Origin: a virus | Length of the DNA stretch: 29,109 bases | Strand: one strand, 5' to 3' | Virus record (IMG/VR): IMGVR_UViG_3300035181_002213 | Location: 1 to 29,109 of that record | Shown: positions 1,259-17,395 of the stretch, piece by piece | Layout of the letters: each line of letters begins with the position of its first letter | Position numbering within the stretch: position 1 is the first letter of the stretch | Notes under the pieces: model-generated | Told to the model about the DNA's origin: nothing | The model's database searches: none | Seen by the model: only the letters and a program-made list of their open reading frames with translations | Made by a program: the position numbers and the translations under genes

Positions 1259-1270
1259 AAGTTCCTCCAC

Positions 1271-1417: not shown

Positions 1418-3004
1418 ATGAATGAAACACTCTCACCTCGAATACTGACTACGCTCAAGAAAATAGACCCTTCGGTGTTTTGGGAGCGTTTCCCAATTCA
1501 GGAAACCTCCTCTGCGCCTTATGGGGTAGTCATGCTCGCGGGGCATCCAGTTATTCGTTTTCCCAAGAACATCGTTGACATGGACGATTTTCTTATCGCG
1601 TGGGCTGGGTCTAGCTACTTGCTTGATTTGCCCTGTGACGACGAGCTTGACAGCATTATTGAAAAAGCAATGAATGAACCTATGTCGTTCGATATCGAAA
1701 CCACTTCGTTGTCTCCATATCGTCCAGGCGTGAGAGTTATATCGTTTTCGATTTCGTTCAAGGACGCTTCTTATTCCGTTCCCATTGCAGAACCTTTTGT
1801 GGATGCTGATACAGCTAAAAAGTATGAAGAATTTATGCTGACCCTCGTCACTAAAGCGAAATATTTAGTGGCATTCAATGGCAAATTCGACTTCACGTAT
1901 TTAGCCCAGCGATATCCAGACCGAGTTAAGTATGAAGAGATACAGTTCAAGTTTGACCCGATGATAGCCGCGCACGTCTTGAGCGGAGCAGGGTTGCAAG
2001 AGTATAATCTAGGTTTTTTGACAAGACATTATTTACCCGAAACTAGGGCTGATTGGAAGGGCGGTCCTGCTGCTTACTTAGCTGAAAACTACTCACGGAC
2101 TAGTGATAGAACGTTTGACAAAGTACCCATTCATATTCTACTCCCTTATGGCAGGAGAGACGCTTATTACACCTTCCTACTGTTTGAAAACCTCTTGCCC
2201 AAGTTAGAATCAGAAAATCTTACTGAAATCTATCACACTGTCCATCACCGTATTAACTACCTGTGCCATCGTATGAATTATGATGGTCTGTGGCTGAATA
2301 GGTTCTTTATTGACTATCTGGACCAGCTCTATCTCAACTCTCTAGATAGTATGTCGAAAAAAACCGAAGAGCAGTTCAGAAGCATAATGAAGTCACGGGT
2401 CAACATTCTCACTCAGCAGGAAAAACAGTTGACTGAAAAGGACTGTGAAGCTTTGCAATCTTTTGCAGACAACCTCAACATCAATAGCTCACAGCAAATG
2501 GCAGAGGCACTGTATACCGTGTTGGGTCTTCCTGTGTTGGAGAGAACTGCTGAAACCAATATGCCGAAAACAAATGCCTCATTTCTCCTGAAGCTTGCTG
2601 CGTTTGATCCCCCGCTGTTCTCGTCTTTCATTACATATAAAAAGTGGACCAAGTATCATGGCTATTTGAAAAACTACTTGAAACTTGCCTGTCAAGAGGG
2701 GGGACAGCCAGACTCGCAAAGGAGGCTAGTATGTCACTCAGAGTTTAATCCAACGGGTACTAGAACAGGGCGAATGGCATCACAAAATCCCAACGCACAG
2801 AATATTAGTGTGGGTTCTGGTCTTAAGGGCTGTTTTACTACTCCTGATTTAGCGCTATTAACTGATGAGTTGTATCGTGAACTGCAGGATGCGGGAATGC
2901 TTACGCATATTGCATCCTACGACGAAGTCACAATAAGAAAACTAGACGAAGAGGAATATGTCGAAGAGCTAGACGAACTAGAAGGAGGCGTAGAAGATGT
3001 TTAA
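1418..3004 (+). CDS. polA: Family A DNA polymerase, N-terminal half: 3'-5' exonuclease and thumb (split gene)
   Basis: The 528-residue product carries an intact proofreading domain: Exo I FDIETT (D92, E94), Exo II FNGKFDF (N154, D158), Exo III YGRRDAY (Y244, D248). A thumb-like helical region follows. Then comes the family A motif that reads TRTGRMASQNPNAQNIS (about 448-464), and LKGCFTTPD, matching the residues just before motif A in full-length enzymes. The frame then leaves the family and ends in an acidic tail (about 510-528, rich in D and E). Motifs A, B and C are missing here and are found at 15971-17395. The ATG follows GAGGA. No intein signature is seen at the junction. The end overlaps the next gene by 8 bases. 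It should work only together with the C-half. Confidence 0.9.
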   Translation: MNETLSPRILTTLKKIDPSVFWERFPIQETSSAPYGVVMLAGHPVIRFPKNIVDMDDFLIAWAGSSYLLDLPCDDELDSIIEKAMNEPMSFDIETTSLSPYRPGVRVISFSISFKDASYSVPIAEPFVDADTAKKYEEFMLTLVTKAKYLVAFNGKFDFTYLAQRYPDRVKYEEIQFKFDPMIAAHVLSGAGLQEYNLGFLTRHYLPETRADWKGGPAAYLAENYSRTSDRTFDKVPIHILLPYGRRDAYYTFLLFENLLPKLESENLTEIYHTVHHRINYLCHRMNYDGLWLNRFFIDYLDQLYLNSLDSMSKKTEEQFRSIMKSRVNILTQQEKQLTEKDCEALQSFADNLNINSSQQMAEALYTVLGLPVLERTAETNMPKTNASFLLKLAAFDPPLFSSFITYKKWTKYHGYLKNYLKLACQEGGQPDSQRRLVCHSEFNPTGTRTGRMASQNPNAQNISVGSGLKGCFTTPDLALLTDELYRELQDAGMLTHIASYDEVTIRKLDEEEYVEELDELEGGVEDV

Positions 3005-3527
3005 GAAACTTTGGAAAACTCTTTTATACGGGACTAGTAATTCTGTTAATCGCACAAGTTGTCAAGAAGCAACATCAGCACCTCTACCTGGGGTTAATTT
3101 GCCTAGTAAGGAAGTGATGGACCAAGCACTGGAAGAGACGTTGGCACGTATGCAAATTATGAATAACCTTGGTCAAAAACATTTTCTAGTCGTTGACATT
3201 GACTCTGAAAGTGAGAGTACCTCGGCGCTCCGAGATACCTCGCCAGCCACAGGAGACTATTACGTTCTTCTTGTGACAAAAGTTGAGAACGGTTTTATTG
3301 TTTTTGACCTTGTTAAAATTCCTATAAATGCAAACACAGATACAGATACAGATACAGATACAGAAACTACAAACGATACGCTAACCAGTAGTCTAACTCG
3401 AAGTGTTATAGAAGCACAGCGACAAAAAGCAACAAAAGCGCGCATCGAAAAAGATTTGAAGCGGATTAAAGGCAAAAAAAGCAAAGAAAACTCCAATAAA
3501 CGGAAGAGTAAAAATGGAAGAGCGTAA
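2997..3527 (+). CDS. Hypothetical protein with Thr-Asp repeat and basic C-terminus
   Basis: The 176-residue product is not recognised. Its ATG overlaps the end of the polymerase N-half and follows a strong GAAGGAGG site, so it is translationally coupled to it. The middle (about 60-110) looks like a small folded domain (HFLVVDIDSESES, DYYVLLVTKVENGFIVFDLVKI). It is followed by an acidic-polar run of T-D repeats made by a 6-base DNA repeat, and then a strongly basic, probably helical tail (about 140-176) rich in K and R. The basic tail could bind nucleic acid or an acidic partner, but that is only inference. Confidence 0.75.
   Translation: MFKKLWKTLLYGTSNSVNRTSCQEATSAPLPGVNLPSKEVMDQALEETLARMQIMNNLGQKHFLVVDIDSESESTSALRDTSPATGDYYVLLVTKVENGFIVFDLVKIPINANTDTDTDTDTETTNDTLTSSLTRSVIEAQRQKATKARIEKDLKRIKGKKSKENSNKRKSKNGRA
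3336..3365 (+). repeat. ACAGAT hexamer microsatellite (about five units)
   Basis: Four perfect ACAGAT units and a fifth ending in ACAGAA, inside the gene at 2997-3527. It encodes alternating Thr and Asp, so changes in copy number keep the frame. Confidence 0.95.
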
Positions 3528-3759
3528 GTACTGGATAACCGAAGAGCGGGATGGCAAATCTACTGGCTTTTTTGTTTGTGACATTCCTAGTTATGAGGAC
3601 GGTACGAAAGCCAACAAATTTTTGATGACTTACGCTGTTACTCATTTCTTAGAGGTTGCCAAACCAGGAGATAAGCTTACAATCGAACTTGTAGGTTCGG
3701 AGTCTGTAGGGGATAACCAAGGTGATACAGCAAGTTTTTACGAGAAAACTAAGAGATAA
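3514..3759 (+). CDS. Hypothetical small protein
   Basis: The 81-residue product begins at an ATG 14 bases inside the previous gene, after a GGAAGAG site. It has a mixed beta/alpha pattern (KYWITEERDGKSTGFFVCDI, then TYAVTHFLEVAKPGDKLTIELVG) and no known motif. Its 3' end looks rearranged: a 25-base segment coding for GDKLTIEL at 3668-3692 is repeated at 3753-3777, where it is in another frame and supplies the stop codon. Read in the original frame, the second copy would give DKLTIEIVDLGAFND. It sits in the operon led by the polymerase N-half. Confidence 0.7.
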   Translation: MEERKYWITEERDGKSTGFFVCDIPSYEDGTKANKFLMTYAVTHFLEVAKPGDKLTIELVGSESVGDNQGDTASFYEKTKR

Positions 3760-3777
3760 ACTTACAATCGAAATTGT
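3668..3777 (+). repeat. 25-base direct repeat at the 3' end of the 3514 gene
   Basis: GAGATAAGCTTACAATCGAA at 3668 and GAGATAAACTTACAATCGAA at 3753 begin two 25-base copies with two mismatches, 85 bases apart. The second spans the stop codon. This looks like a local duplication that gave the gene a new C-terminus. Confidence 0.85.
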
Positions 3778-3794
3778 CGATTTGGGGGCTTTCA

Positions 3795-4028
3795 ATGATT
3801 GAGCCTGTTCGTCCAACACGAAAAGAACTGCTTGACCATATCAGGAAAGAGTTAGACGAGAGTGTTAAGGATTTGCATTATAGTCTTTTATCGCGGGAAC
3901 AGGAATCGTATCTCACTCGATTAGACAGACTGAATGCGCTGTTGATATTGGTTGGTGATTGTCTTATTTGTCAAGGAGATTGTCCCGACGGAATTCCGCT
4001 CGACCTATTTCCCGACAAGCATATATAG
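3795..4028 (+). CDS. Hypothetical small helical protein
   Basis: The 77-residue product is predicted mostly helical (RPTRKELLDHIRKELDESVK, then SREQESYLTRLDRLNALLIL) and ends with a short Cys pair, CLICQGDC. No family was recognised. The frame opens at TTG 3774, but ATG 3795 follows a GGGGG stretch and is the better start. It ends the operon led by the polymerase N-half; the next gene has its own promoter-like element at 4075. Confidence 0.65.
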   Translation: MIEPVRPTRKELLDHIRKELDESVKDLHYSLLSREQESYLTRLDRLNALLILVGDCLICQGDCPDGIPLDLFPDKHI

Positions 4029-4074
4029 GCATGAACTCTAGGATACTCAAAAATAGAACTCATTGTGATTCGTA

Positions 4075-4089
4075 TTTTCGCTATTATAA
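4075..4089 (+). promoter_or_regulatory. TTTTCGCTATTATAA element (candidate promoter for SSB)
   Basis: TTTTCGC, TATTAT (4082-4087), then AACTGGAA. It lies about 100 bases before the SSB start at 4186 in the same orientation and is nearly identical to the copies at 1271 and 14415. A TTGTGA at 4063 is too close (13 bases) to act as a normal -35 box. Confidence 0.5.
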
Positions 4090-4185
4090 CTGGAACATAT
4101 AATTGCCCCAAAGAGCCGCAGGACCGCGAAGAAGCTCTGAATTGGTCAGAGTAGGTCAGCTCAAATGGGCACAGGAGGTCATACA

Positions 4186-5100
4186 ATGGTTACAAAAACC
4201 CAAGCAAAGGCAGAGAAACCCGAACAGAAGACTGTTTCAGTAACGTCAGGGATGACAAATCTCGACAAGATTAAGCAGCTTAAACAGAAGTTATCACAGG
4301 GTACGAGGGGCAATAATGACGAGAAGTCTGACAGACTTCCATTCTTCAAGTCTGGCGGGAAAGTAGGTACGTCTTTCTGTATTCGTTTTCTTCCGCTGCC
4401 CTTTATGTCCACCCCGATTCTGTACGTCAAAGAACATCACAATCTGTTTCCTGACCAGCCTTACCGAAATGCTGTGTGCCCCAAGAGCACAGGTGACGGT
4501 GAATGTCCTATTTGCGAGTATACGTACACCAAGTGGAAGGAGTTAAAAGAAAAGAACGACGAAGCGGGGATGAAAGCCTTAGTTACTCTTATGGCTAAGG
4601 ATAAAGTTTACGCAGTCATTTATAATCGCTCAACTAACAGAGTTGAGAAGATTAGTATGTCAGCCACGCTTGCCAATCAAATTTTCACTGAATGGGATCC
4701 AGATTCAGGAGAAGACATCACTGATCCCTACAAGGGAAATGATTATACACTGAAGCTCTCTCCGTCCCAAAAAAGCTCAGGCTTCACCTATTCTGCTAGC
4801 AAAGTAACAATGCCAGATGGAAAAGGTGGCAGTCTTCCTTATCCAACCCCAATTATTACTGATGCGAAAGGCAAGCCTGACAAGGAAGCTATTCAAGCCA
4901 TCCTAGACGAGGTGGCTGCCCATGAGCAAGAAATCAGGTGGCTTATCACCCCGCTTCCTTACGACGATTTAGCAAAACTTCTCAAGCACGAAGCGGATAC
5001 TGGTGAAGCTAGTGAAGATACGAGTGATGCAACTAGCGAAGATTTTTCTGCCGCCGAAGACGAGGATGTGGAAGCCGCCCTTGCCGCAGTTAGGAAATAA
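4186..5100 (+). CDS. T4 gp32-like single-stranded DNA-binding protein
   Basis: The 304-residue product resembles T4 gene 32 protein, which coats single-stranded DNA at replication forks and recombination sites. It has a basic, lysine-rich N-terminus, the FLPLPF start of the core, and a zinc-binding set matching gp32 in order and spacing: H85, C98, C107, C110 (H-x12-C-x8-C-x2-C). The C-terminus is acidic (about 275-300), as in gp32, where the tail contacts polymerase and helicase-loading proteins. The frame opens at ATG 4165, but ATG 4186 follows an AGGAGG site. It is a short unit with its own upstream element and a terminator right after it, suggesting strong separate expression. Confidence 0.88.
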   Translation: MVTKTQAKAEKPEQKTVSVTSGMTNLDKIKQLKQKLSQGTRGNNDEKSDRLPFFKSGGKVGTSFCIRFLPLPFMSTPILYVKEHHNLFPDQPYRNAVCPKSTGDGECPICEYTYTKWKELKEKNDEAGMKALVTLMAKDKVYAVIYNRSTNRVEKISMSATLANQIFTEWDPDSGEDITDPYKGNDYTLKLSPSQKSSGFTYSASKVTMPDGKGGSLPYPTPIITDAKGKPDKEAIQAILDEVAAHEQEIRWLITPLPYDDLAKLLKHEADTGEASEDTSDATSEDFSAAEDEDVEAALAAVRK

Positions 5101-5131
5101 ATAACTAGCTAGGAAACGTCGTTCGGATATT

Positions 5132-5168
5132 GGGCGAGGGTTTGGATGACTCTCGCCCACATTTTTTT
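5132..5168 (+). terminator. Rho-independent terminator after SSB
   Basis: Stem GGGCGAG (5132-5138) pairs with CTCGCCC (5152-5158) around a 13-base loop, followed by ACA and seven T (5162-5168). It lies between SSB and the resolvase start at 5187. Confidence 0.85.
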
Positions 5169-5186
5169 ACTAGTCTTGGAGATACG

Positions 5187-5726
5187 ATGACGTATTACTT
5201 AGGATGTGATCCTGGTCTGAACGGCGCAATATGTGTGTTATCCCCCGAATCTGGCATGGCACGATTTTGGGATATTCCCACTGTGACAATTGTAAAATCA
5301 GTAAAAAAGAGGCGTAGAATCGTTGATATTGCAGAGCTTTGGAAAATAATTTGTAGCATTAAGACAACTTATGGAACCGACATTAAAACCGTAACATTGG
5401 AAAATGTTCATGCTATGCCGCATGAAGGAGTTACTTCTGCATTTTCATTTGGTAGAACTTTCGGAATTATCGAGGCTTTGTTAATTGCCGCTAGTCTTGA
5501 ACCGAAAAAAGTTGAAGCCGCTGTGTGGAAACGGAAGTTCGGTCTGCTGATGCCCAAAGAGACAGCAAAAGCAACCAAAAAAGCGACATCGATAGCAAAG
5601 TTTGTTGAGTTATCTGGCTGTCCTTCTGATGTTTTGATTCCAAAAGGGCATAGAGTCCCGTCAGATGGATATGCTGACAGTGCTCTCATTGCCATATACG
5701 GTTTCCTCTCAGAAAAGAATATATAG
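5187..5726 (+). CDS. RuvC-like Holliday junction resolvase
   Basis: The 179-residue product has the RNase H fold signature of RuvC-type resolvases: a first strand YLGCDPGLNGAI with D8, a second acidic position in VTLENVHAMP (E72), and a C-terminal DGYADSALIA with D160 and D164. The HAMPHEGVTSAFSFGRTFG stretch is typical of the phage and bacterial branch. These enzymes cut four-way DNA junctions, and in phages also branched packaging substrates. The frame extends upstream through the terminator, but ATG 5187 follows TTGGAG and is clearly the start. It comes just after the SSB terminator, so it depends on read-through or an unseen promoter. Confidence 0.85.
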   Translation: MTYYLGCDPGLNGAICVLSPESGMARFWDIPTVTIVKSVKKRRRIVDIAELWKIICSIKTTYGTDIKTVTLENVHAMPHEGVTSAFSFGRTFGIIEALLIAASLEPKKVEAAVWKRKFGLLMPKETAKATKKATSIAKFVELSGCPSDVLIPKGHRVPSDGYADSALIAIYGFLSEKNI

Positions 5727-5778
5727 ACAGGTGCTATTAAACGTGGACAAATAAATTACTTTTTTCCAGGAGTATTCG

Positions 5779-7356
5779 ATGCCTAGACCTCGTAAGTTTC
5801 CTAAATTAGAGTTATCGTATTTCGACAGTCTCAACTGGAGCGACACGTATTCAGCGTTAGTTGCTCTAGGTACGCAGTTTATTTTCAAGATTACTTCTCC
5901 AGAGATTTCTACTGCTACTTTGTTTTTTTATCTAGATGTCTATACTCCAATGGAGCAGTCACCAGAGCGAGTCCAAAATACTACTTCGTTGCGATTGTCT
6001 GGTCATGGGCTTATAGTAGCGCAGGACCAAGAAGGACTTGATTATTGGGCGAAACTATTGCGAGCTGCAATCGGTGCAAGAACAAAGCCTACTTATCATG
6101 CCGACCAAGAGTCCGCAGCTAGCGGCAAAAAGGCTCTTGATGTTATGTGGTCGTATGAGAGAACGAGGGAAGAAGAAGAAGCAGGAGATACAGAAAAGAG
6201 CTTTGTTCGAGCAGTGTCAGTTAAATCTCTTCCAGAGTTTCTTAAGCAGTTTAAGGCGGAGGCAATTAAAGAGGTTAAAAATACCAAAATACGGTATTTG
6301 GTAGAGCGTTCGCCAGAAGCAATAGTAATGATGATTCCAATTTCGGATTTAACAAAAGCTTTCAAAAAGTTTGAAAACTGGTTTAAGATAATGTCAACAG
6401 CAAGTAAAGAAACGCATAGGTTTGATTGGGAAAGGGAAACTGAAGATGAAGACGAGGATTTAGAAAACCTGAAAGGGCCTAGTGACGAAGATTTGGCTGC
6501 CATAGAACAAGAGGAAGAGAATGGTAAGACTCCTCGCGGAAAGCAATCTGGCGGGGCAGTAGAAATGTCACACGCAAAATACAGAGGGCGATTGATGAAA
6601 GAAACATTTTGGCCAGGTTTTAGTGGAGGGTGGGTCTGGTTTACTAATATAAATTATAGACCAGAATTTGATAGGGCTATTGATGACGTACTTCATCGGT
6701 TTATACCTCCTTCAGATTACGATATCGATCCCGTAGACATGGTTATTACGTTTTATTCTAAGAAAGCTTTTAACCTTTTCATAGCAAAGGCAGAAGACTT
6801 GGGCATTGAAGGTTACAACGCAGCGACGTATGACGAAGATTTTGATGAATTTGAAATAGAAAATCAAGGTCTAAAGGAATCGTATCCTATCAGTGGCTAT
6901 GACATTAGGGGCGAGGGTATCAAAAACCTGAACGAAGACCCGATGAGTTTTGGCGCGAGTGTTTTCGAGGACGACGGTGAAGGTGCCGGTACCATTACTA
7001 ACCATGACCTCACAGTCTGGTCAAAAAAAGATGCCGAGACGTTATTGTCATATTCTGATGGCGCTAAGTCAGCTATTGAAAATATAGCTAGAGCGATACT
7101 TGGTGGTATAGAAGATGGAGAAAATGAGCCCCAAACAGTAACTCTTGACTGGTTCAAGCTGTCATCACGAGACAGCAACGAGGACGCTAGAGCGTATGTT
7201 AAGCAGGCTATTGAAGAACTAGAACAATATAGGGAGTGGCTTGAAGAGAATCCTGATATTAAAGGTGCTGGCTCAGAAGACGAGATTCAGAACCTTATTG
7301 CCAAACTAAACGCAACCAGGGCAAGAAAGCTTCTAGTGGAAGACCCGCTAAAGTAA
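5779..7356 (+). CDS. Large acidic hypothetical protein
   Basis: The 525-residue product was not recognised. Start ATG 5779 follows CCAGGAG. The N-terminal 110 residues and a segment near 275-350 (FSGGWVWFTNINYRPEFDRA, then MVITFYSKKAFNLFIAKAED) look like folded alpha/beta domains. Between them is a charged stretch rich in E and D (about 215-255). The C-terminus (about 470-525) is helical and charged. There are no visible transmembrane segments, Cys clusters or nucleotide-binding motifs. It follows the resolvase and ends at a shared terminator with the convergent helicase. Position suggests a DNA-metabolism or host-takeover role, but nothing in the sequence proves one. Confidence 0.75.
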   Translation: MPRPRKFPKLELSYFDSLNWSDTYSALVALGTQFIFKITSPEISTATLFFYLDVYTPMEQSPERVQNTTSLRLSGHGLIVAQDQEGLDYWAKLLRAAIGARTKPTYHADQESAASGKKALDVMWSYERTREEEEAGDTEKSFVRAVSVKSLPEFLKQFKAEAIKEVKNTKIRYLVERSPEAIVMMIPISDLTKAFKKFENWFKIMSTASKETHRFDWERETEDEDEDLENLKGPSDEDLAAIEQEEENGKTPRGKQSGGAVEMSHAKYRGRLMKETFWPGFSGGWVWFTNINYRPEFDRAIDDVLHRFIPPSDYDIDPVDMVITFYSKKAFNLFIAKAEDLGIEGYNAATYDEDFDEFEIENQGLKESYPISGYDIRGEGIKNLNEDPMSFGASVFEDDGEGAGTITNHDLTVWSKKDAETLLSYSDGAKSAIENIARAILGGIEDGENEPQTVTLDWFKLSSRDSNEDARAYVKQAIEELEQYREWLEENPDIKGAGSEDEIQNLIAKLNATRARKLLVEDPLK

Positions 7357-7385
7357 CTTTTTTGGCTATAAAATAAGCTCGCGGC

Positions 7386-7416
7386 GAAAAGGCAACTAGT
7401 TTTTGTTGCCTTTTTC
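7386..7416. terminator. Bidirectional terminator between convergent genes
   Basis: GAAAAGGCAAC (7386-7396) pairs with GTTGCCTTTTTC (7405-7416) around an 8-base loop. The arms carry A and T runs, so the hairpin ends transcription from both sides. It overlaps the stop codon of the helicase gene on the minus strand. Confidence 0.88.
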
Positions 7417-8841
7417 TGTTTCTATGGCGGGGACTAAAAACGCCAACAAATCTTTCCAGTGTTTTCGTTCGTAGTTGTAATTTTTATACATCGCCTTTCT
7501 TGCTACGACCTGTTGCATATACCAAGCATCCTGGATATCGATAATTATTGCCACCTTTTTCTCTGGGTGAGTTCTGACGGCTCTTCCAATGGTCTGCGTG
7601 ACTTTGATGATTGATTTGCCTCCATCACCAAAAATCACGACATTCAGTAAAGTTAAATCAACACCTTCAGCACCAACAGTACCACATATCACGATTGGCT
7701 CTTTTTCTTTTTGGTTTTTGTACAACATTGAGTAAGCATTATTTCGGCTATCTATTTCAGAATCTCCAGTAAGAAAATGTATGTTTTCAACTATTTTTTC
7801 AGTATCATTTACAGCTTTCAAGTTGTCAACGTGCTCTGTCCAGGCGACCGCGATATACGTGTTCAGACCTTTTCTTCTGCATAGTTCAGCGACCTTCAAA
7901 ATGAAGCGGTTTCTGTTTTCGTTTTTAATAATCTCGTACCTATGCTGATTTACGGGGTCACGCGATTGCAGAGCGTCAATAACGTGACTAGCATTCTTTT
8001 TGTTATCTCCTTTGTATAGCACCTCGTATACGAGTGGGTACATTACGAACGGCTTCACTCGTTCATCTTTGCTGCCTTCGTATACTAGTCCACCAAAATT
8101 AGCTATAAGTCTTGCATGTTTTACGTCTTGCCAGTCTTCTGCACCAGGTGTAGCTGACAAGCCAGCTCGATACAATGCTGGGCATCTGCCGAGTATGGAA
8201 TACAGCTTCTTTGTGCAATGATGCACTTCGTCAGCAATCAAAGCCTTGACTGTTTTTAAGAACACTCTTACTGGGGGCTTATAAAGTGCTAACGCTTGAT
8301 TGGTCATCACCACTATATCCCCTCGCAAGTCTCTATCATAACCGCCATATTTTGTAATACTATATTTCTTACCTAAGTATTTTGAGAACTCGGTGTAGAC
8401 TTGGTGTAATAAGTCTCTTGAAGGTACAATGACGAGAACTGGTTTTGGAAACTTGTCTGCCAATGCTATTTCAATCAGCGTTTTTCCTGATGCTGTTGGG
8501 CTTTGTATGATTCCAAAACCCTTTTTCAATATGGCATTTGCGGCGTCTAATTGATAGTCTCTCAGTTTTAATTTCTGTCCCTCTTCAGGGGGGATTTCTG
8601 GCAACGGTTGCACGGGATTGTCAAAAACCACATTGTCTATTTTGGTATTGAGATAATCAATGAGCCCTAACTTGAAACCAGTCATGCTGCATAGACGTTC
8701 GAGATGAAAGTTTTTGAATGTTATTACTTCAAAGGTCAACGCCTTGTTTATTTGCTCTTTGAGCAGGGGATCAACTGTAGATGCAGTCCAGCCATTGAGT
8801 GAAACTTTTACATGTCGCGTAGCGCTGTTAGAGTCTGTCAT
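7396..8841 (-). CDS. UvsW-like SF2 DNA helicase
   Basis: The 481-residue product is a superfamily 2 helicase of the UvsW/ERCC3-like type. Motifs in order: RDYQLDAA (Q-like, about 94-101), Walker A SPTASGKT (114-121), IVPSRDL (Ia), DEVHH (204-208), SAT (229-231), GAEGVDL (V), and QTIGRAVR (VI). T4 UvsW unwinds branched DNA and R-loops and moves replication from origin-dependent to recombination-dependent mode. The N-terminal 85 residues precede the helicase core, as in UvsW. Start ATG 8841 follows AGGA and overlaps the end of the preceding gene by 14 bases, indicating coupling. Confidence 0.88.
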   Translation of the reverse strand: MTDSNSATRHVKVSLNGWTASTVDPLLKEQINKALTFEVITFKNFHLERLCSMTGFKLGLIDYLNTKIDNVVFDNPVQPLPEIPPEEGQKLKLRDYQLDAANAILKKGFGIIQSPTASGKTLIEIALADKFPKPVLVIVPSRDLLHQVYTEFSKYLGKKYSITKYGGYDRDLRGDIVVMTNQALALYKPPVRVFLKTVKALIADEVHHCTKKLYSILGRCPALYRAGLSATPGAEDWQDVKHARLIANFGGLVYEGSKDERVKPFVMYPLVYEVLYKGDNKKNASHVIDALQSRDPVNQHRYEIIKNENRNRFILKVAELCRRKGLNTYIAVAWTEHVDNLKAVNDTEKIVENIHFLTGDSEIDSRNNAYSMLYKNQKEKEPIVICGTVGAEGVDLTLLNVVIFGDGGKSIIKVTQTIGRAVRTHPEKKVAIIIDIQDAWYMQQVVARKAMYKNYNYERKHWKDLLAFLVPAIETEKGNKN

Positions 8842-9478
8842 CTGCTGTCCTGTTGTTCTGTGACCATTCTAAATACGTTGAGAAGAGTTTGAATCCTTCT
8901 GGTGTACGAGGCAATACACCGCGTTTCATCAAAATTTTGATTTTCTTTCGCCGGTCTTCCACCTGCTCATTTAGTGCTTCTATTATTGCGTCATACTCAG
9001 GTAAATGCTCGATTGTTTCCGAATCAATAAGAAACAGAAAAGCTTCTAATGGCAATACCGAAGTAAACAAATCTCTTAGAATTTCTTCTTTAGTGTACTT
9101 ATTTCCAGCGTATTTAAGCACAGATGGACGAAGACTATCAAATACTGTTGGCGGCGAGGATGTATAAGTACCCTCACCGTATCTTCTTACGTAAACGGGG
9201 CTGAGAATAAGATTCAGCACGTGGTTCTTGTATGGTCTTGAAGACATAAAAGTAAACCCAGTCTTTTTGATGTTGTTTGTGAATCCGTCAAAGCAGACCT
9301 GTATGTATCTAAGTGGGTTAATTTGACCTTCGTTACAGAAAGTCATAATATTCCTTGCTGCTGTTACATTGCCTTTAGTGAAGAAACACTCTTTTCCGAA
9401 ACGAAGAATATACAATTCGGAGAAATACAGCAACAACGGACGCACATCGCTATTCTCAGTACGCCACTCAATAAACAT
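8828..9478 (-). CDS. Hypothetical protein coupled to UvsW-like helicase
   Basis: The 216-residue product is not recognised. The frame opens further upstream, but ATG 9478 follows GGAGGG with 9-base spacing and lies just after a TTTTCGCTATTATAA element, so it is the start. It is basic and mixed alpha/beta in its first half (NVTAARNIMTF, YVRRYGEGTY) and helical at the C-terminus (DAIIEALNEQVEDRRKKIKI). It runs into the helicase gene with a 14-base overlap, so a shared recombination or replication role is plausible but unproven. Confidence 0.72.
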   Translation of the reverse strand: MFIEWRTENSDVRPLLLYFSELYILRFGKECFFTKGNVTAARNIMTFCNEGQINPLRYIQVCFDGFTNNIKKTGFTFMSSRPYKNHVLNLILSPVYVRRYGEGTYTSSPPTVFDSLRPSVLKYAGNKYTKEEILRDLFTSVLPLEAFLFLIDSETIEHLPEYDAIIEALNEQVEDRRKKIKILMKRGVLPRTPEGFKLFSTYLEWSQNNRTADDRL

Positions 9479-9510: not shown

Positions 9511-9535
9511 CGGTAGATAAAAACAGGAGAATACA

Positions 9536-10211: not shown

Positions 10212-10221
10212 GCGCTATAAT
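10212..10221 (+). promoter_or_regulatory. GCGCTATAAT element (candidate promoter for 10244 gene)
   Basis: GCGC followed by a consensus TATAAT (10216-10221), then GTAATTGAAAGGGAGG. It aligns with the CGCTATTAT elements elsewhere, with TATAAT in place of TATTAT, and helps fix the reading direction of the element. No clear -35 box. Confidence 0.45.
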
Positions 10222-10243
10222 GTAATTGAAAGGGAGGCTCGCT

Positions 10244-10660: not shown

Positions 10661-10673
10661 GTTTCGCTATTAG
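10661..10673 (+). promoter_or_regulatory. GTTTCGCTATTAG element (candidate promoter for 10706 gene)
   Basis: Begins at the stop codon of the preceding gene and precedes ATG 10706 by about 35 bases. This is the TATTAG variant, shared with the copy at 25856. Confidence 0.45.
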
Positions 10674-10705
10674 TAGTGCTTTCGTGGAATTGGAGGAGAT
10701 AAACT

Positions 10706-11068: not shown

Positions 11069-11104
11069 CTGGGACTGTTTATGCTAATGTCGTTGTGTCA
11101 AACC

Positions 11105-11150
11105 AGGCTGAAGAAAGGCAGCCTTCCATTCCCACTGTGACTTAAGTGGG
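11105..11150 (+). other. Two adjacent hairpins upstream of the 11170 gene
   Basis: AGGCTG (11105-11110) pairs with CAGCCT (11119-11124), and CCCACT (11131-11136) pairs with AGTGGG (11145-11150). Neither is followed by a good T-run. They fill most of the 100-base gap between 11068 and 11170 and may be leader structure. Confidence 0.45.
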
Positions 11151-11169
11151 GTTTGGTAAACTCGGAGCC

Positions 11170-11526
11170 ATGCGAATACAATCTCCATTTATGCCAGAAT
11201 CTATGTTTGAAACCTATGAGCCAACTTTGACCGACCGTTTTTTCAACTGGCTTACAGAAAAGCTCATCGTCCTCACTGGCGGTAAGCAATGGAACCACAA
11301 TATACAACCTCGACCTCTGGTTAAGGTAGATAAGAATGGTGTACAGGTGGTGAAATGGTGTGTTGACCATGATTGCCCCGTGCCGGTAACGGCAGACGGT
11401 TTACATTGCGCTTGGTGTGGGTCTAAATCTCTGTTGCCTATTAGTCCCACTGGGCAACCAAAAGGAGTCTTAAATCCAAAGGAAAAGAAAGAGGGTGACT
11501 CATCTCTTTTGGGTGAGCGTTCTTAG
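11170..11526 (+). CDS. Small protein with a candidate zinc ribbon
   Basis: The 118-residue product starts at ATG 11170 after CTCGGAG; an in-frame GTG at 11146 lies in a hairpin and has no ribosome site. Four cysteines form a ribbon-like set, C64-x4-C69 and C80-x2-C83 (CVDHDC and CAWCGS), probably binding zinc. The N-terminus is helical and the C-terminus is polar and charged. It ends 30 bases before a strong terminator. No specific family was recognised. Confidence 0.65.
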   Translation: MRIQSPFMPESMFETYEPTLTDRFFNWLTEKLIVLTGGKQWNHNIQPRPLVKVDKNGVQVVKWCVDHDCPVPVTADGLHCAWCGSKSLLPISPTGQPKGVLNPKEKKEGDSSLLGERS

Positions 11527-11555
11527 TTCTGTGCTATATTAATTATTCTGACAAG

Positions 11556-11590
11556 GAAAAGCTGAGGGCTAATTCTCAGCTTTTCTTTTT
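11556..11590 (+). terminator. Rho-independent terminator
   Basis: An 11-bp perfect stem, GAAAAGCTGAG (11556-11566) with CTCAGCTTTTC (11575-11585), an 8-base loop and five T. It ends the unit containing the 11170 gene. Confidence 0.92.
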
Positions 11591-11625
11591 GTTGGCAGAG
11601 AATATACACTTTAGAGGCTGCTGTT

Positions 11626-11654
11626 TTGCGATTTACTGCGCATTTACTTATAGC
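11626..11654 (+). promoter_or_regulatory. Candidate sigma70-type promoter for 11678 gene
   Basis: TTGCGA (11626-11631), a 17-base spacer and TATAGC (11649-11654), right after a terminator and about 25 bases before the start codon. Unlike the CGCTATTAT elements, it has a recognisable -35 box. Confidence 0.35.
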
Positions 11655-11677
11655 ACCCTCAACTGGAGGAGAATTCC

Positions 11678-12574
11678 ATGAAGTTAATACTTCTGAATCC
11701 TAATGCACCACCCGTTCTTACGTTTTCTGATCCAGATATGTATGGCAGAAATCAAGAAGTTATCAAAACTCCAAGCAATACACTAGCAAATCCTCCTAGT
11801 GGCGTAGGGGCGATAAAAGCCTCAATAAGCGCTGGCGGGACAATTACAGCAGGACTACACTCTTATGTTATGACGTTTGTTACAGATGCTAGCACCTCTC
11901 CCATGAAAGAATCTGCCCCAATTGCGCTATCAAACATTGTTGTGACGACCTCCGCAAACGGTAAGGTTAATCTTGCTAACCTTCCTATTTATGCTGGAGA
12001 AGGAACTATTGTTGGTAGAAATATCTATCGTACTTTAGCAGGAAATGTTCCTCCATATCATAGACTGACGAACGCTAGTACCCTTACTATTGCTAATAAC
12101 ACAGATACAACGTATTCAGATACTGCCTCTGATGCTACTATTAGTTCATATCCAGTTGCTCCAACCACTGACTCTACTGGACTTGGACTTGCATCAGCGC
12201 AACCTATAGCCATTAATGATAGACAGTACGAGCTTATGATTGACTCACCCCTAGCCTACTGTATCACTCTTGTTGCGGACCTGTATGACGATAGGATGGA
12301 TACGTTTAATGCTGTTTCGGTCTCAAACGGTACGTATACGCTGTTTGCATTCAAGCGTCCGAGGAAAACTATTTCCATCTATACGTCTGCCGCTATTTTG
12401 GTTGCGCCGCAGAATCCTGCAGTCAACCCTGCGGTACAAACCATTTCTATTCCAGCCTCTACAACGTCGCCATTTGTTTTGGATGTAACGATGTTGCCTT
12501 GGAATACAGCTTTCCTTGCTTTGTGGATAGCTGGTAATGGGGCTAATTCAACAGTAAGCCTAACTGCTGTTTAA
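11678..12574 (+). CDS. Virion/tail-like beta-rich protein
   Basis: The 298-residue product starts at ATG 11678 after ACTGGAGGAG. Residues about 46-155 match a fibronectin-like domain common in phage tail and baseplate proteins: TITAGLHSYVMTFVTDAST, a beta stretch, VGRNIYRTLAG, and TTYSDTASDATI. The rest is small-residue, Thr/Ser/Ala-rich and beta-like, with few charges. No signal peptide or membrane segment is evident. It is expected to be a structural or adhesion component, though it sits among replication and unknown genes. It has its own promoter-like site and terminator-isolated start. Virion role is inference from the domain. Confidence 0.6.
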   Translation: MKLILLNPNAPPVLTFSDPDMYGRNQEVIKTPSNTLANPPSGVGAIKASISAGGTITAGLHSYVMTFVTDASTSPMKESAPIALSNIVVTTSANGKVNLANLPIYAGEGTIVGRNIYRTLAGNVPPYHRLTNASTLTIANNTDTTYSDTASDATISSYPVAPTTDSTGLGLASAQPIAINDRQYELMIDSPLAYCITLVADLYDDRMDTFNAVSVSNGTYTLFAFKRPRKTISIYTSAAILVAPQNPAVNPAVQTISIPASTTSPFVLDVTMLPWNTAFLALWIAGNGANSTVSLTAV

Positions 12575-12602
12575 TATACCACTTCATTAAAGGAGTCATA
12601 AA

Positions 12603-13961
12603 ATGTCACGAAGACACGAATTTATAGAAACTGCCACCTCCGCTAACGGTATTGATTTTATTAGTTGCGACCTTTTAACCTTCGGTGATTATGGTGGAGC
12701 AGGTTCTGTTGGTCTTGCTAACATTAACTATCTTAGAGACAAGTTTAAGCCCCATATTGAAGAAGGTGGATTCAAAGTCGAAGACGAAGATGTCGCAGAT
12801 AGCACAGAATTGTTTATTGCCAATGGTGTGTACCATTCACAGCAAGCTTGGCTTCGAGACACAGAAGAAAATCGAGAGCTACTATCATCGCTTAAAAAGT
12901 ATCCCGCTTTTGATGACCAATATATATCAGACGTGGAATCAGAATGGGAGGAGGAAGCTTGGGAATCGTGGGTCAAACGCGAACTTCTAGACTTTGCTGA
13001 GGACGAGATAGTCGACGACCCAGAGACGGGTGAAGAAATAACGCTCGGTGAACTTCTTGAAAGGGCCGGAGATAAAGAAGAGCAAGACAAGATTCTTTAT
13101 TATGCTTACAAAGACGCAATGAACGAAACAGATACATATCCTGAGCCTGAGTATTCCGACGTATCCATTGACACAGCTAAAATCAAGGATTCATTTCTCA
13201 AGTTTCTTAAAAAGGCGTTGGTAGGACCGTTTATACCTAGCAACCAGCAGGAGCTACCGTTAGAAGACAGCAAAAAGCTAATTGAATCGAACAGACAGTG
13301 GGTGTATGACGCGAGTATTAAAAATTATAGACGCACACCCGAATCAGACGGGAGACGGGTGTACGACGCTTGTATTAAAAATTATAGACGTGAAGGTCAC
13401 ACTGAAGATTGCCCGAAAGAATATATGCGTGACCGGCTACGTCGCAAGAATGACAAAACTAGCGAATCCGATTCAATAAAAGAAAGCAGAGAATCCGAGG
13501 AGACTACGTATTACATAGCGGCACAACGAGGGATAGAAGACACTTTTGCTGTGTTTGTCAATGGTAAAGATGTGCCAGTGACTTTTGAGGATTTGGGGAC
13601 GATTAAAGCAAAATCACTTAAGGACGCGGCTAAAAAGTGGGTGCGAAAAGTATTCTCAAACCGTACAGAAAAGCCATTTACTAAAGTAGTAAAAGAAACG
13701 CCAAATTATATCGTGGTAAAGATAGAGGAAGCATCTTCAATAACGGAGAGCAGAAGGACAGCGGCAGACGTGAGTGTCGAAAATCAAGGTTCGGTTATCG
13801 TGTTACAACCACTCACTAAAAAAGCTAAGATGTGGATAGACGAAAACGTGTCCTCTGAGCCGTGGCAATGGGTAGGAAATGGCCTGGTGATTGATTGGCG
13901 CATGGCAGAGGAGTTGGTAGATGCTATGCGAGAGGAAGGGCTTATTCTTCACATGAACTAA
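12603..13961 (+). CDS. Conserved phage-type hypothetical protein, highly acidic, with internal duplication
   Basis: The 452-residue product starts at ATG 12603 after AAAGGAG. The first 150 residues carry the pattern of a family I recall from phage genomes: a GGAGSVGLANINYL stretch, then LKKYPAFDDQYISDVESEWE and AWESWVKREL. No function is known. A 19-residue segment is duplicated in tandem (RQWVYDASIKNYRR and RRVYDACIKNYRR). The C-terminal third is a separate mixed alpha/beta region (TYYIAAQRGIEDTFAVFVNG, then FTKVVKETPNYIVVKIEE, and a final helix). It is followed closely by 13988 and probably shares its transcript. Confidence 0.7.
   Translation: MSRRHEFIETATSANGIDFISCDLLTFGDYGGAGSVGLANINYLRDKFKPHIEEGGFKVEDEDVADSTELFIANGVYHSQQAWLRDTEENRELLSSLKKYPAFDDQYISDVESEWEEEAWESWVKRELLDFAEDEIVDDPETGEEITLGELLERAGDKEEQDKILYYAYKDAMNETDTYPEPEYSDVSIDTAKIKDSFLKFLKKALVGPFIPSNQQELPLEDSKKLIESNRQWVYDASIKNYRRTPESDGRRVYDACIKNYRREGHTEDCPKEYMRDRLRRKNDKTSESDSIKESRESEETTYYIAAQRGIEDTFAVFVNGKDVPVTFEDLGTIKAKSLKDAAKKWVRKVFSNRTEKPFTKVVKETPNYIVVKIEEASSITESRRTAADVSVENQGSVIVLQPLTKKAKMWIDENVSSEPWQWVGNGLVIDWRMAEELVDAMREEGLILHMN
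13300..13390 (+). repeat. In-frame tandem duplication, period 57 bases
   Basis: Two 34-base copies at 13300-13333 and 13357-13390, with three mismatches, sharing GTATTAAAAATTATAGACG. It encodes the doubled VYDAxIKNYRR segment. Confidence 0.9.
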
Positions 13962-13987
13962 TGATATCGTGCTGAATAGGAGGATTT

Positions 13988-14380
13988 ATGTCCAAGATTA
14001 CACGTGAGTTTCAAGACCCCTTTCTTCTAGGTTATTTGGATGCTATTCTTTTTGCCGAAACAGATGAAAAGGGAAATTCCCTAGATAGTAACTTTACAAT
14101 TTCAGATTTTTCTTCCAAATCGATAATCCAAGCCCAGGATGTTTGTGACCAATTTGAGACAGAGGCGGGAGATTTGTTGTCTGAAGTTGCAACTTACTAT
14201 CGTGCAGGTATGCTATTTTGGCTCAACAGGAATGGACATGGTTCTGGATTTTGGGATGAGCCGTCAATAGATAAACACACGGGTAAAATATTATCGGACC
14301 TCTCCCACGAGTTTGGGGAATGCGATGTCTATGTGGACGACCAAGGACAGATAGTAGTAATTGACCCATATTTTAATTGA
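13988..14380 (+). CDS. Conserved phage hypothetical protein with RNGHGxGFWD motif
   Basis: The 130-residue product starts at ATG 13988 after TAGGAGG. It has the signature AGMLFWLNRNGHGSGFWDEP (about 73-92), which recurs in small phage proteins of unknown function, together with the preceding YLDAILFAETDE segment and a final GECDVYVDDQGQIVV. It is compact and soluble with no membrane segment. The first part matches the usual pattern of an acidic N-terminal helix followed by the GHG core. Assignment to this family rests on motif memory, not a search. Confidence 0.72.
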   Translation: MSKITREFQDPFLLGYLDAILFAETDEKGNSLDSNFTISDFSSKSIIQAQDVCDQFETEAGDLLSEVATYYRAGMLFWLNRNGHGSGFWDEPSIDKHTGKILSDLSHEFGECDVYVDDQGQIVVIDPYFN

Positions 14381-14414
14381 ACTGAAAACAACAGGAAGAT
14401 TTGAGGTTGCACAC

Positions 14415-14428
14415 TTTCGCTATTATAA
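14415..14428 (+). promoter_or_regulatory. TTTCGCTATTATAA element (candidate promoter for the 14531 operon)
   Basis: TTTCGC, TATTAT (14421-14426), then AATTGATATGGAA. It precedes a terminator-like hairpin at 14478-14512 and the GTG at 14531, so the transcript would carry that hairpin in its leader. Confidence 0.5.
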
Positions 14429-14477
14429 TTGATATGGAATTTCTTGGTGTGACTTTCATACTATTCGCATATTTTTT

Positions 14478-14512
14478 GTCGTGTGCTTTTTAGCATACGA
14501 CTTCGCTTTTTT
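14478..14512 (+). terminator. Terminator or leader attenuator before 14531
   Basis: GTCGTGTGC (14478-14486) pairs with GCATACGAC (14493-14501), one G-U pair, six-base loop, then TTCGC and six T (14507-14512). It lies between a promoter-like element and the ribosome site of the next gene, so it may act as an attenuator for the nuclease and polymerase C-half operon. Confidence 0.7.
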
Positions 14513-14530
14513 CAGCCTAGGGGGAGTAGC

Positions 14531-14917
14531 GTGACTGCCTTACTTGGACTTCTTATCGTGCTAGTGTTTGGTTTAGCGTCTTTTGGCTTTGCGTTGTTTG
14601 TGTTAGAATCTCCTTATACCGAACCTATCGTGCATTGGTTTGAGCAAAGAAAGAACCAGAATTGGTTTTATCGTATTTGTTCTAAAGGTCTTTCCTGTCC
14701 TCTATGCTCTGGTTTTTGGGGAGGAGTACTTTCGTGGTTTTGTCTAAAAAATACACTCTTCGGAAGTCATCCCACAATCCTAGATACTTTTGTCTTAGGC
14801 TGTCTAGGGGGAGCCACCTCTCTATGTTTGTATTATCTACGAGAGATAGCTTTTAAGTGGCTAGGGGGAGAACAGGGAAAAGAGCAGGAAGACGAAGACA
14901 GCAAGGAAAGAGGATAA
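14531..14917 (+). CDS. DUF1360-like membrane protein
   Basis: The 128-residue product starts at GTG 14531 after TAGGGGGAG; the longer TTG start at 14483 lies inside the leader hairpin. It has a hydrophobic N-terminus (about 3-25), the CPLCSGFWGG motif (about 56-65) typical of DUF1360 and similar small phage and Bacillus membrane proteins, a hydrophobic stretch at about 85-103, and a charged, acidic tail. The motif Cys pair may bind metal or form a disulfide. It opens the operon that continues into the nuclease. Function of the family is not known to me. Confidence 0.65.
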   Translation: MTALLGLLIVLVFGLASFGFALFVLESPYTEPIVHWFEQRKNQNWFYRICSKGLSCPLCSGFWGGVLSWFCLKNTLFGSHPTILDTFVLGCLGGATSLCLYYLREIAFKWLGGEQGKEQEDEDSKERG

Positions 14918-14919
14918 CA

Positions 14920-16074
14920 ATGTCAACGATGACAGAAGCAAAACGCAATGCAATAAGTTCATTTAGCTATTCTCGGATTACCACCTTCTTCGCTTGTGCA
15001 AGACATTTCGCCATAGCCTACATCCACAAAATTCCGATGGGCAAAACCAAAGCCATGGAAATGGGCACACAATTACACGAATTTTACGACAAGCTCAACA
15101 AGATAGACATAGCAAACGATGGGACAGCAGTAGCTCTTTCTCAACATCCAGAAGGCAAAGCAATCGTCACGGCTTTTAAGAAGCAATACCCTGCAGAGTA
15201 TATGAAGTTTCATAATGTTTGGCGTCCCTACCGTAGAGCGTTGCCGAGAGGACCCTTAGAATATTCAGAGCATCAAGATAGGATGTTAATAGATATACCA
15301 AATTCTCCTGTGTCTAATACAACGTTAATGGGTATTATGGATTACACTAATCTCAACGCACGAGGAAAAGCTATCATTGTAGATTTCAAGAGTGGTTCAA
15401 GTCAAGACAGTCCGAGTTATCGAGATCAAGCTGCGCTTTATGCTCTCATCACGCTGTATGTTTACCCACAAGTGCAAGAAGTGAAGACCGTTATTTTTGA
15501 CATATCCTCCACTCAACGAGGAGCTTTAGACACTGGTACGTTTTACTTTCTTCGGGAGCGGGATTATGAACCTCTGCGGCTTGCCACACAGAAAATGATA
15601 GGAACGATAGTTGAAGCGGTAGTCAACGACAAGTTTCCCGCCACCCCGTGCAATAAATGCAGCTATTGTCCAGATACTACTTGCAAGTTCAATAAGAACT
15701 GGAAGATAAAGGGGCAGCCTTTAGCAGAAGTATCAGCACTCCCCCCGCAGGAAGAAAACTCTAATAGTCCTACAGTGGAAACGAAACAGGAATCTTCTCT
15801 GTTCATGCCTTCAAAAAACGCTATTATAGGTGGCGGAGAACCAGAACCGGAATCAGTCTCTATGTCTTCTGTGTTTGGCTCATTTGAGTTAGGAGAGAAG
15901 GAAAAAGCAGCCCTAATCGCCATACGAGAACATCTTGCTAGTATGCCAAGTAAATTGGAGAAAAAGGAAAATGCCGAATCCGAGTCCAGTAAAGACACAC
16001 AAACCCAAAGCAAAGCAACTATCAAAACAATCAAAATTCCAATCGCCAAAACTGAAGGTAGAAGTAAAAAATGA
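14920..16074 (+). CDS. Cas4/RecB-like PD-(D/E)XK nuclease with Fe-S cluster
   Basis: The 384-residue product has the RecB/Cas4 nuclease core: SFSYSRITTFFACARHF with C26, GTQLHEF with H53, MGIMDYTN with D141, VDFKSG with D155 and K157, and YRDQAALYAL with Q170 and Y174. Cysteines C244, C247, C250 and C255 with C26 can form the 4Fe-4S cluster of AddB/Cas4-type enzymes. Such proteins degrade or resect DNA ends. ATG 14920 follows AAAGAGGA. The last 100 residues are polar low-complexity and the final 104 bases overlap the polymerase C-half in another frame. No cas1, cas2 or CRISPR array is near, so a phage recombination role is more likely. Confidence 0.85.
   Translation: MSTMTEAKRNAISSFSYSRITTFFACARHFAIAYIHKIPMGKTKAMEMGTQLHEFYDKLNKIDIANDGTAVALSQHPEGKAIVTAFKKQYPAEYMKFHNVWRPYRRALPRGPLEYSEHQDRMLIDIPNSPVSNTTLMGIMDYTNLNARGKAIIVDFKSGSSQDSPSYRDQAALYALITLYVYPQVQEVKTVIFDISSTQRGALDTGTFYFLRERDYEPLRLATQKMIGTIVEAVVNDKFPATPCNKCSYCPDTTCKFNKNWKIKGQPLAEVSALPPQEENSNSPTVETKQESSLFMPSKNAIIGGGEPEPESVSMSSVFGSFELGEKEKAALIAIREHLASMPSKLEKKENAESESSKDTQTQSKATIKTIKIPIAKTEGRSKK
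15816..15830 (+). promoter_or_regulatory. AAAACGCTATTATAGG element inside the nuclease gene
   Basis: AAACGCTATTATA then GGTGGCGGAG, about 140 bases before the polymerase C-half. It matches the recurring element except at the T-rich start. It could be an internal promoter for the C-half, but it lies in coding sequence and may be chance. Confidence 0.25.
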
Positions 16075-17395
16075 TGACTGTGTATTGACTAGGGAACAGG
16101 CATTTACTCTTCTGCTGCCTGTCGAGTCCGCGCAGTGTGCTTTTTTTCTTAATAGATACAGAACTGACAAGGCATTTGCGGAAAAATGGAACGCTAAAAT
16201 AGATGAGTACCGAAAAGATCCATTTGTGCTTGTAAGTGCTGACGCCTCTCAGGCGGAGGTACGTATTGCTTCGTCACTGTCCAATGAACGACATCTCATA
16301 GACAATCTGTATCGCAAACAGCTTGAGGCAGATTTACAGGGTCTGGATACTGACAAAGTGCCAGAGCTGGATTTACACATCAGAACAGCTGCCGCTATCG
16401 CTGGCATTCCATTTGACCAAGTTACCAAAGACCAAAGACGAGGCGCTAAACGTATTACTTTTGGAACGATGTACGGCGCTACTGAATTTCGTATTGCCGT
16501 AGAATCAAATATTTCAGTTGGCGAAGCCAAAAAGCTTCTCGACAAATTTTGGGCTGCTTATCCTGATTTGTGGAAATGGACAATAAAACTTGTAGCAGAA
16601 GGAGTAACTTATGGCTATGTAGAAACGCCAAATGGCCGTCGTAAAGCTTGTCCTACATTAAAAGGTAAAAAAGAATTTCTTGCGTGTTTTATTCATGGTA
16701 AAAGTCCTTGGCTGGCACTTAAAAATCAGTATAGCTACGGTGTTATAAAGCAGGTTATGCGAGAGATACGACAGATACGCAATTTTCCTGTACAGTCATT
16801 CACTTCTGATTATATTACAAATGGCGCGTATCTATTGACTGAAGAATGTAAGAAGCGTGGTATAGAAATGGTGTTTCATACTATCGTACATGATGCCCTT
16901 GTTGCGTCGGTACGATATTCGAGGCTCAAAGAATATCTAGTACTTATGAAGCGCATTATGGAGAAAGATGTAGTAGAACAGATGGGTATTATCTGTCCAA
17001 TGAAAATGGATCAGGAAGTGGGGTTTGGGTATCACTCCTTAATGAAGGTAAAATACCTACTTGACAACGAAGATTGGAATACACTACCGGCAAGAATGGT
17101 AGACCATGCGCGCAAAGTAAAAGCGGCAACGATTATCGGCCAGGTGGGCGAGAATTCGTTGTTCCTTTTCAAACCAGAGAACCAAAAACCGTATCTCCTT
17201 ACCTCGAAAGAAGTCAAGGAAACTGGAATCAGCAACGATTCTTTTCGTCAAATGTTTATTTCATACAGAAAACGATGGAACTTGTCACCAGAAGCATTAC
17301 AGGCTGCGTATGAGGAATTAATGCCGCTTGTCGAGACGGTGTATGAACGTCCCGATTTTGCGGAAGCTGTGAAAATGGGAGACGACCACAAATGA
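15971..17395 (+). CDS. polA: Family A DNA polymerase, C-terminal half: motifs A, B and C (split gene)
   Basis: The 474-residue product begins where the N-half (1418-3004) ends. It holds motif A LVSADASQAEVRI (D91, R98), motif B RRGAKRITFGTMYG (R156, K160, Y168, G169), NFPVQSF and TSDYI, and motif C TIVHDALVAS (H307, D308). The residue after D308 is Ala, where most family A enzymes have Glu (HDE). ATG 15971 follows GGAGAAAAAGG and overlaps the nuclease by 104 bases; that overlap gives a strongly basic N-terminal tail (about 8-33, rich in K). About 110 residues after the normal end of the palm are an extension I cannot place. It must assemble with the N-half to have exonuclease and thumb. Confidence 0.9.
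   Translation: MPNPSPVKTHKPKAKQLSKQSKFQSPKLKVEVKNDDCVLTREQAFTLLLPVESAQCAFFLNRYRTDKAFAEKWNAKIDEYRKDPFVLVSADASQAEVRIASSLSNERHLIDNLYRKQLEADLQGLDTDKVPELDLHIRTAAAIAGIPFDQVTKDQRRGAKRITFGTMYGATEFRIAVESNISVGEAKKLLDKFWAAYPDLWKWTIKLVAEGVTYGYVETPNGRRKACPTLKGKKEFLACFIHGKSPWLALKNQYSYGVIKQVMREIRQIRNFPVQSFTSDYITNGAYLLTEECKKRGIEMVFHTIVHDALVASVRYSRLKEYLVLMKRIMEKDVVEQMGIICPMKMDQEVGFGYHSLMKVKYLLDNEDWNTLPARMVDHARKVKAATIIGQVGENSLFLFKPENQKPYLLTSKEVKETGISNDSFRQMFISYRKRWNLSPEALQAAYEELMPLVETVYERPDFAEAVKMGDDHK

Follow-up and report, generated by a model that had tools for sequence, protein, structure and literature searches.

Replicative DNA polymerases encoded by two genes are known from family B, in which gp43 of some T4-like Aeromonas phages and the PolB enzymes of Methanothermobacter and Nanoarchaeum are split, the last being joined by protein trans-splicing through a split intein. 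These cases share with the one described here a replicative polymerase made from two genes, but they belong to another polymerase family. In this study, we analyse a split family A DNA polymerase (PolA) in a viral DNA stretch of 29,109 nucleotides (IMG/VR record IMGVR_UViG_3300035181_002213, positions 1 to 29,109), which we refer to as the window. The closest described systems are those of the OM43 phages MEP401 and MEP402, in which the polymerase lies in two open reading frames (ORFs) with a small ORF between them; an intron has been suggested, and most of the related metagenomic genomes likewise carry split polymerases (PMC10580990, 2023). In the open-licence literature, we found no further account of a family A polymerase that is split. 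Phage PolA enzymes made as two proteins, with the split beside motif A, are a kind already documented, and in print the split has been read as a possible intron. What is new here is a different lineage, two genes that lie 13 kb and approximately 17 ORFs apart, and tails at the break of approximately 50 residues in the N half and 84 in the C half.

We interpret the window as recording a gene fission of a replicative family A polymerase before motif A, whose two protein products would join without a peptide bond into an exonuclease-proficient, Klenow-like enzyme. We give this reading a probability of roughly 0.77; within it, the assembly, the activity and the role of the tails are what we infer. 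The two genes and their parts are as follows.

1418-3004, plus strand: N half of the family A DNA polymerase, 528 amino acids (Pfam, our own hidden Markov model (HMM), Foldseek)
2852-3001, plus strand: tail at the C-terminus of the N half (residues 479-528), without PolA similarity in our HMM, net charge -14
15971-17395, plus strand: C half of the family A DNA polymerase, 474 amino acids (Pfam, our HMM, Foldseek)
15971-16222, plus strand: extension at the N-terminus of the C half, comprising the 84 residues (1-84) that precede motif A (our HMM, structure model)
16223-16258, plus strand: motif A strand FVLVSADASQAE, at which the polymerase fold resumes in the C half

The N half contains a 3′-5′ exonuclease (approximately residues 73-264), the thumb, the TGR motif and the first palm strands, and its polymerase part ends with ...LKGCFTTPD (residue ~477). 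Pfam recognizes DNA_pol_A_exo1 (PF01612, 6e-13) and positions 10-139 of the DNA_pol_A profile (PF00476, 2.3e-18), and a PDB sequence search matched the thumb and early palm of Taq and Klenow. The exonuclease residues D92, E94, D158, Y244 and D248 are present, and the arginine of the TGR motif is R452. In an alignment of 40 sequences, D92, N154, D158, D180, Y244, D248 and the TGR arginine R452 are invariant and are all kept in the N half, as are the nearly invariant E94 and K156. None of motifs A, B and C was found in the N half in the family alignment.

The C half runs from the motif A strand onward and supplies the fingers (motif B), the palm (motif C) and a C-terminal extension of approximately 105 residues. 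It matches positions 152-376 of the DNA_pol_A profile (PF00476, 4.1e-38), and in the PDB sequence search it matched Klenow from just before motif A. The catalytic residues are D91 and E96 (motif A), R156, K160, F164 and Y168 (motif B), N271 and Q275, and H307 and D308 (motif C). Those that mark motifs A to C of a PolA (D91, E96, R156, K160, F164, Y168, H307 and D308) are invariant or nearly so, and the invariant residues of a second 40-sequence alignment (D91, E96, H136, K160, F164, Y168, N271, Q275, H307 and D308) are all kept. Translation begins at an ATG with its own Shine-Dalgarno sequence (GGAG/AAGGA upstream), located inside the 3′ end of the upstream nuclease gene; TTG codons at 15935 or 16085 are possible alternative starts. 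The anatomy given in the initial annotation, with exonuclease, thumb and TGR motif on one protein and motifs A, B and C on the other, is borne out by Pfam, the HMM and the alignments.

Our HMM was built from approximately 75 viral PolA proteins, most of them whole, and has 487 positions. The N half aligns with positions 8-235 and the C half with positions 237-483, so that the two are exact complements with zero overlap and no catalytic residue has been lost; judged by sequence, the polymerase fold is covered exactly once by the two chains. As had been noted, the break at 235/237 lies just before motif A; it falls in the beta-hairpin turn that links the RxxF strand to the strand of motif A, a surface turn in Klenow. 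The two genes are separated by 12,966 bases with approximately 17 predicted ORFs, in agreement with the 13 kb first reported. The palm is shared out over two ORFs at this distance, and the single polypeptide that is usual for PolA, if not essential to it, is not found here. A search for intact relatives, as the initial annotation had proposed, recovered 80 viral polymerases with a profile led by the window sequence; 79 are continuous across the break site, and the remaining one is cut by a contig end.

AlphaFold models of the two halves were built separately from alignments of viral relatives. The mean predicted local distance difference test (pLDDT) values were 79.0 for the N half and 76.8 for the C half, and the cores were mostly above 85; low values were confined to the first ~68 and last 33 residues of the N half and to the first ~55 and last ~85 residues of the C half. 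According to Foldseek, the best PDB match of the N half model is Escherichia coli Pol I (8oo6, 1.3e-14) and that of the C half model is the Taq Stoffel fragment (1jxe, 4.7e-15), and the latter model fits several Bacillus Pol I entries at about 2 Å over 269 columns. In these models, each half looks independently foldable and Pol I-like. A confident model for each half alone would also be expected if the halves now worked apart, the N half as a free exonuclease and the C half as a free polymerase core that lacks an exonuclease. However, the N half retains the thumb, the TGR arginine and palm strands that a lone exonuclease would not need, and in the C half the thumb and the first strands of the palm, both used by family A polymerases, are missing; we regard separate functions as very unlikely.

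Both halves carry additional residues at the break. The tail of the N half (approximately 50 extra residues, net charge -14) is the most acidic C-terminus among the 35 proteins of the window, and the AlphaFold model gives it helices of low confidence. A comparison with Taq by phmmer hinted that this tail might be a decayed motif A, that is, a vestigial overlap; the family HMM gave the tail no score, and this idea was rejected. In the extension of the C half, the first ~33 residues have a net charge of +8 and a confident helix is predicted at residues 67-82. Extra residues on both sides of the break would suit a split intein that joins the halves after translation by protein trans-splicing, as has been proposed for PolB of jumbo phage MIJ3 (PMC6892783). 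In viruses, this part of PolA can indeed harbour inteins: two viral loci (L022:1058-4300 and L048:7598-11077) contain an intein directly after the TGR motif, approximately 25 residues before the break in the window, with matches to PF14890 just under its cut-off and, in L022, an HNH domain in addition. However, Pfam finds no intein or Hint domain in either half, no HN-S/T/C splice junction precedes motif A in the extension of the C half, and the only cysteine near the end of the N half (GCFTTP) aligns with the polymerase itself. Moreover, when read by eye, the tails of ~50 and 84 residues contain no intein blocks. There is accordingly little to recommend joining by a split intein, and its probability is slight.

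The arrangement could also be produced by an assembly artefact that fused distant or different genomes. The two halves occur together on one contig only, and no further copy of the C half was found in the other IMG/VR contigs, so that the region of the C half is known from a single contig. However, neither half has its missing part beside it, and each gene ends or starts within a gene context of its own; because neither gene adjoins its missing part, a mis-join could not produce the split. Furthermore, a second IMG/VR contig (IMGVR_UViG_3300035661_003804, hereafter L001; 14,676 bp) is 99.97% identical to the window over positions 1-8950, with three single-nucleotide polymorphisms that are all outside the N half. 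Because L001 reproduces these 8,950 bp, the region of the N half is not a one-off assembly product. The GC content is even along the window, and the codon usage of both halves is that of the neighbouring genes. Therefore, we consider an artefact extremely unlikely. The assembly error and the second complete polymerase, which the initial annotation had named as grounds for doubt, were both looked for, and no other PolA was found in the 29-kb record or in L001.

The polymerases of the MEP401 type (MEP401/MEP402-type OM43 phages, OP830906 and OP830907, and relatives, including Alcaligenes phage vB_Af_QDWS535, OK172329, and ctOsX528, MW202697) resemble that of the window in carrying the exonuclease and the TGR motif on one protein and motifs A to C on the other. 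In MEP401, the N half ends with ...LFLSRYGE and the C half begins with MILNADAK; this break, at HMM position 236/237 compared with 235/237 in the window, is likewise located between the RxxF strand and motif A. Unlike those of the window, the halves of the MEP401 type are adjacent or one small ORF apart, and tails are almost nil. The small ORF of MEP401 itself encodes gp14 (77 amino acids, L007:7276-7509), which has no PHROG match; in other members of the family, the gap is similar in size to this ORF or is missing. A viral scan with the C half of MEP401 yielded 80 loci (L123-L202), 75 of which are informative in that both parts are visible, and the polymerase is split in all 75. In these relatives, the N part ends at 234-239 and the C part starts from 235-239, with few weakly aligned exceptions. 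The cultured Alcaligenes phage QDWS535 has the same break, and its two coding sequences overlap by one base. Because all 75 relatives and QDWS535 share the break (234-239), a palm split at this place persists as two ORFs in real phages.

The distance from the stop codon of the N part to the first start codon of the C part ranges from -29 to 974 nucleotides among the MEP401 relatives. At 28 of 76 junctions it is below 100 nucleotides, and 14 of these overlap, so that a group I intron could not fit there. Therefore, the split in the MEP401 clade is a conserved two-protein state, and these relatives argue against the intron suggested for MEP401 and MEP402 (PMC10580990). The same junctions count against an intron in the window, a reading in which the two ORFs would be exons that a split intron unites by RNA trans-splicing, or that an intron has lately parted. 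Interruptions of this type do exist in phage PolA: the polymerase of Lactobacillus phage Semele (MG765279, Herelleviridae) is, as in the window, in two ORFs, with its break near the TGR motif, and the annotation of Vibrio phage ICP2 joins PolA from two pieces that flank an HNH gene. The break in Semele is at 207/209 with a 972-bp ORF between the pieces, which is an intron-type interruption unlike a clean fission. However, a cmscan search of the window returned zero Rfam matches at E<=1 and thus no group I intron, and the tails are in frame with ordinary start and stop contexts: the stop codon of the N half overlaps the ORF that follows it (ATGTTTAA), and a Shine-Dalgarno sequence of its own precedes the C half. 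We consider an intron a poor explanation for the window and one with a very small chance of being correct.

Two further cases are informative for the arrangement of the genes. The genome ct2os315 (MW202796, complete and circular; L228:1924-7393) has the same split, and its halves are, as in the window, not adjacent, being 3.6 kb and seven coding sequences apart, including one for a cytosine methyltransferase. Because ct2os315 separates them by 3.6 kb, which is the next largest separation found after the 13 kb of the window, the halves need not adjoin. Unlike the window, it belongs to the MEP401 clade, has the shorter separation and lacks long tails. In the Vibrio phage ICP2 group (NC_015158, NC_024791 and Saratov-12), PolA is also in two ORFs near motif A, but its break is approximately 14 residues upstream of that of the window, with an N piece that ends with ...PNLQNISN and a C piece that begins with MSDIKRC; in the ICP2 reference an HNH endonuclease ORF lies between the pieces, and ICP2_2013_A_Haiti and Saratov-12 have adjacent ORFs. 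The proposal that a break beside motif A sets this polymerase apart is not upheld, given that MEP401-type phages, QDWS535 and ct2os315 break at this place or within two or three positions of it. The inteins of L022 and L048, the HNH ORF of ICP2 and the interruption in Semele indicate that mobile elements favour this stretch of PolA.

An IQ-TREE phylogeny of 50 rows and 633 columns unites the split enzymes of MEP401 and QDWS535 in one clade (100/100), which is sister (100/100) to the HMO-2011-type enzymes, which are intact. Outside both clades, the window sequence forms a branch of its own, and common descent with the MEP401/QDWS535 polymerases is not recovered. A constraint that placed the window in the split clade was rejected by the approximately unbiased test (p=0.003); it was also rejected when ICP2 was added in a second tree (p=0.007), in which the evidence from ICP2 comes solely from the row of ICP2_2013_A_Haiti, the C part of the ICP2 reference row being out of frame. 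The split in the window is therefore probably, though not certainly, independent of that of the MEP401 type, with the caveat of a long branch. A plausible history is that a mobile element inserted and was then lost, leaving two ORFs, which a rearrangement would later have parted. Whether family A polymerases have been cut at least two times independently at the same beta-turn by motif A, and whether the halves in the window are fully unlinked genes that gained long tails as docking elements and so form a natural obligate two-subunit PolA, is to us an evenly balanced proposition.

Several points weigh against our interpretation. The branch of the window is very long (2.3 changes per site), which could reflect relaxed constraint; the link between the halves on one molecule is known from a single contig; and the viral genome is incomplete, the record being a fragment, so that a polymerase could lie elsewhere in the genome. 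In addition, no close relative of the phage was found in viral contigs, which were searched by the C half, the N half and the TGRMA, RITFGT and DnaB Walker patterns, or in GTDB genomes, which were searched by the C half; these searches returned nothing beyond remote polymerases that are intact, PolA of cellular origin or the phage itself. The long branch and the incomplete genome, together with the fragmentation of PolA genes in other phages, would also suit the view that the halves are decaying remnants and that the phage relies on the host enzyme or on a second polymerase outside the sequenced part. However, both ORFs are fully open, their codon usage is like that of their neighbours, replication genes are nearby, and the N half is identical in L001, another assembly. 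Because the catalytic residues, including every invariant one, are fully conserved, we believe that a decayed gene is unlikely.

The complementarity of the halves, the intact catalytic residues, the foldable models and the splits that other phages conserve at the same site all support a two-chain polymerase. Under this interpretation, fission in the beta-hairpin turn that precedes motif A would have produced two proteins that each fold largely by themselves. The N chain would supply the proofreading exonuclease, the thumb and those outer strands of the palm that bear the TGR arginine, and the C chain would supply the catalytic palm with motif A and motif C, and the fingers. The chains would associate non-covalently, and the palm sheet and the base between thumb and palm would be re-formed. 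The tails at the break, acidic in the N half and basic and then helical in the C half, may aid the halves in finding and holding each other. This docking role is a guess, and the charge complementarity is suggestive only, given that the N tail is at -14 but the +8 stretch of the C half overlaps another gene. The initial annotation had proposed assembly without peptide joining; this survives as the best-supported mechanism, neither an intein nor an intron having support in the sequence, and the physical assembly itself is what we infer.

Both polymerase genes are located within a replication cluster that, according to Pfam and PHROG, includes a single-strand DNA-binding protein, RuvC, UvsW-like and DnaB helicases and a primase. 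The neighbouring genes of interest are as follows.

650-1270, minus strand: family-4-type uracil-DNA glycosylase (UDG), PF03167 2e-28, adjoining the N half and divergently transcribed
4165-5100, plus strand: gp32-like single-strand DNA-binding protein, PF08804 4.8e-8, phrog_1192
14857-16074, plus strand: PD-(D/E)XK / Cas4-like exonuclease, PF12705 3.3e-17, phrog_69, its 3′ end overlapping the start of the C half
20271-21653, plus strand: DnaB-like replicative helicase, PF03796 6.3e-23, phrog_19 1.8e-74

A matching UDG domain is found inside the PolA ORF in 17 viral loci, and one may speculate that the UDG of the window is the third piece of an ancestral UDG-exonuclease-polymerase protein; against this, stand-alone family-4 UDG genes also occur in phages, and the sampling is biased to polymerase loci. 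A perfect 7-bp tandem repeat (AATAGCG, 9.3 copies, 1314-1378) lies between the divergent UDG gene and the N half. Of two GroES-like ORFs, that at 17392-17835 matches the co-chaperonin GroES phrog_3188, and that at 25887-26261 resembles GroES by eye only and has no PHROG match. The ORF at 23322-24425 is a possible DHH-family phosphoesterase, perhaps RecJ-like (PF01368, E 0.005, under the cut-off). L001:1-6261 extends the phage leftward and encodes an SbcC/gp46-like ATPase, a protein with RCC1 repeats and, as a metabolic enzyme that is unexpected in a phage, a radical-SAM lysine 2,3-aminomutase (PF12544).

These observations point to the turn ahead of motif A as a place where members of one of the best-studied enzyme families are recurrently split in nature, and they show that such a split can persist throughout an entire clade of phages with no intron involved. 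Because each half resembles a fragment, annotation and surveys of PolA may miss or mis-count such enzymes. The split polymerases also provide ready-made pairs for studying the assembly of a two-chain palm or for building conditional (split) polymerases.

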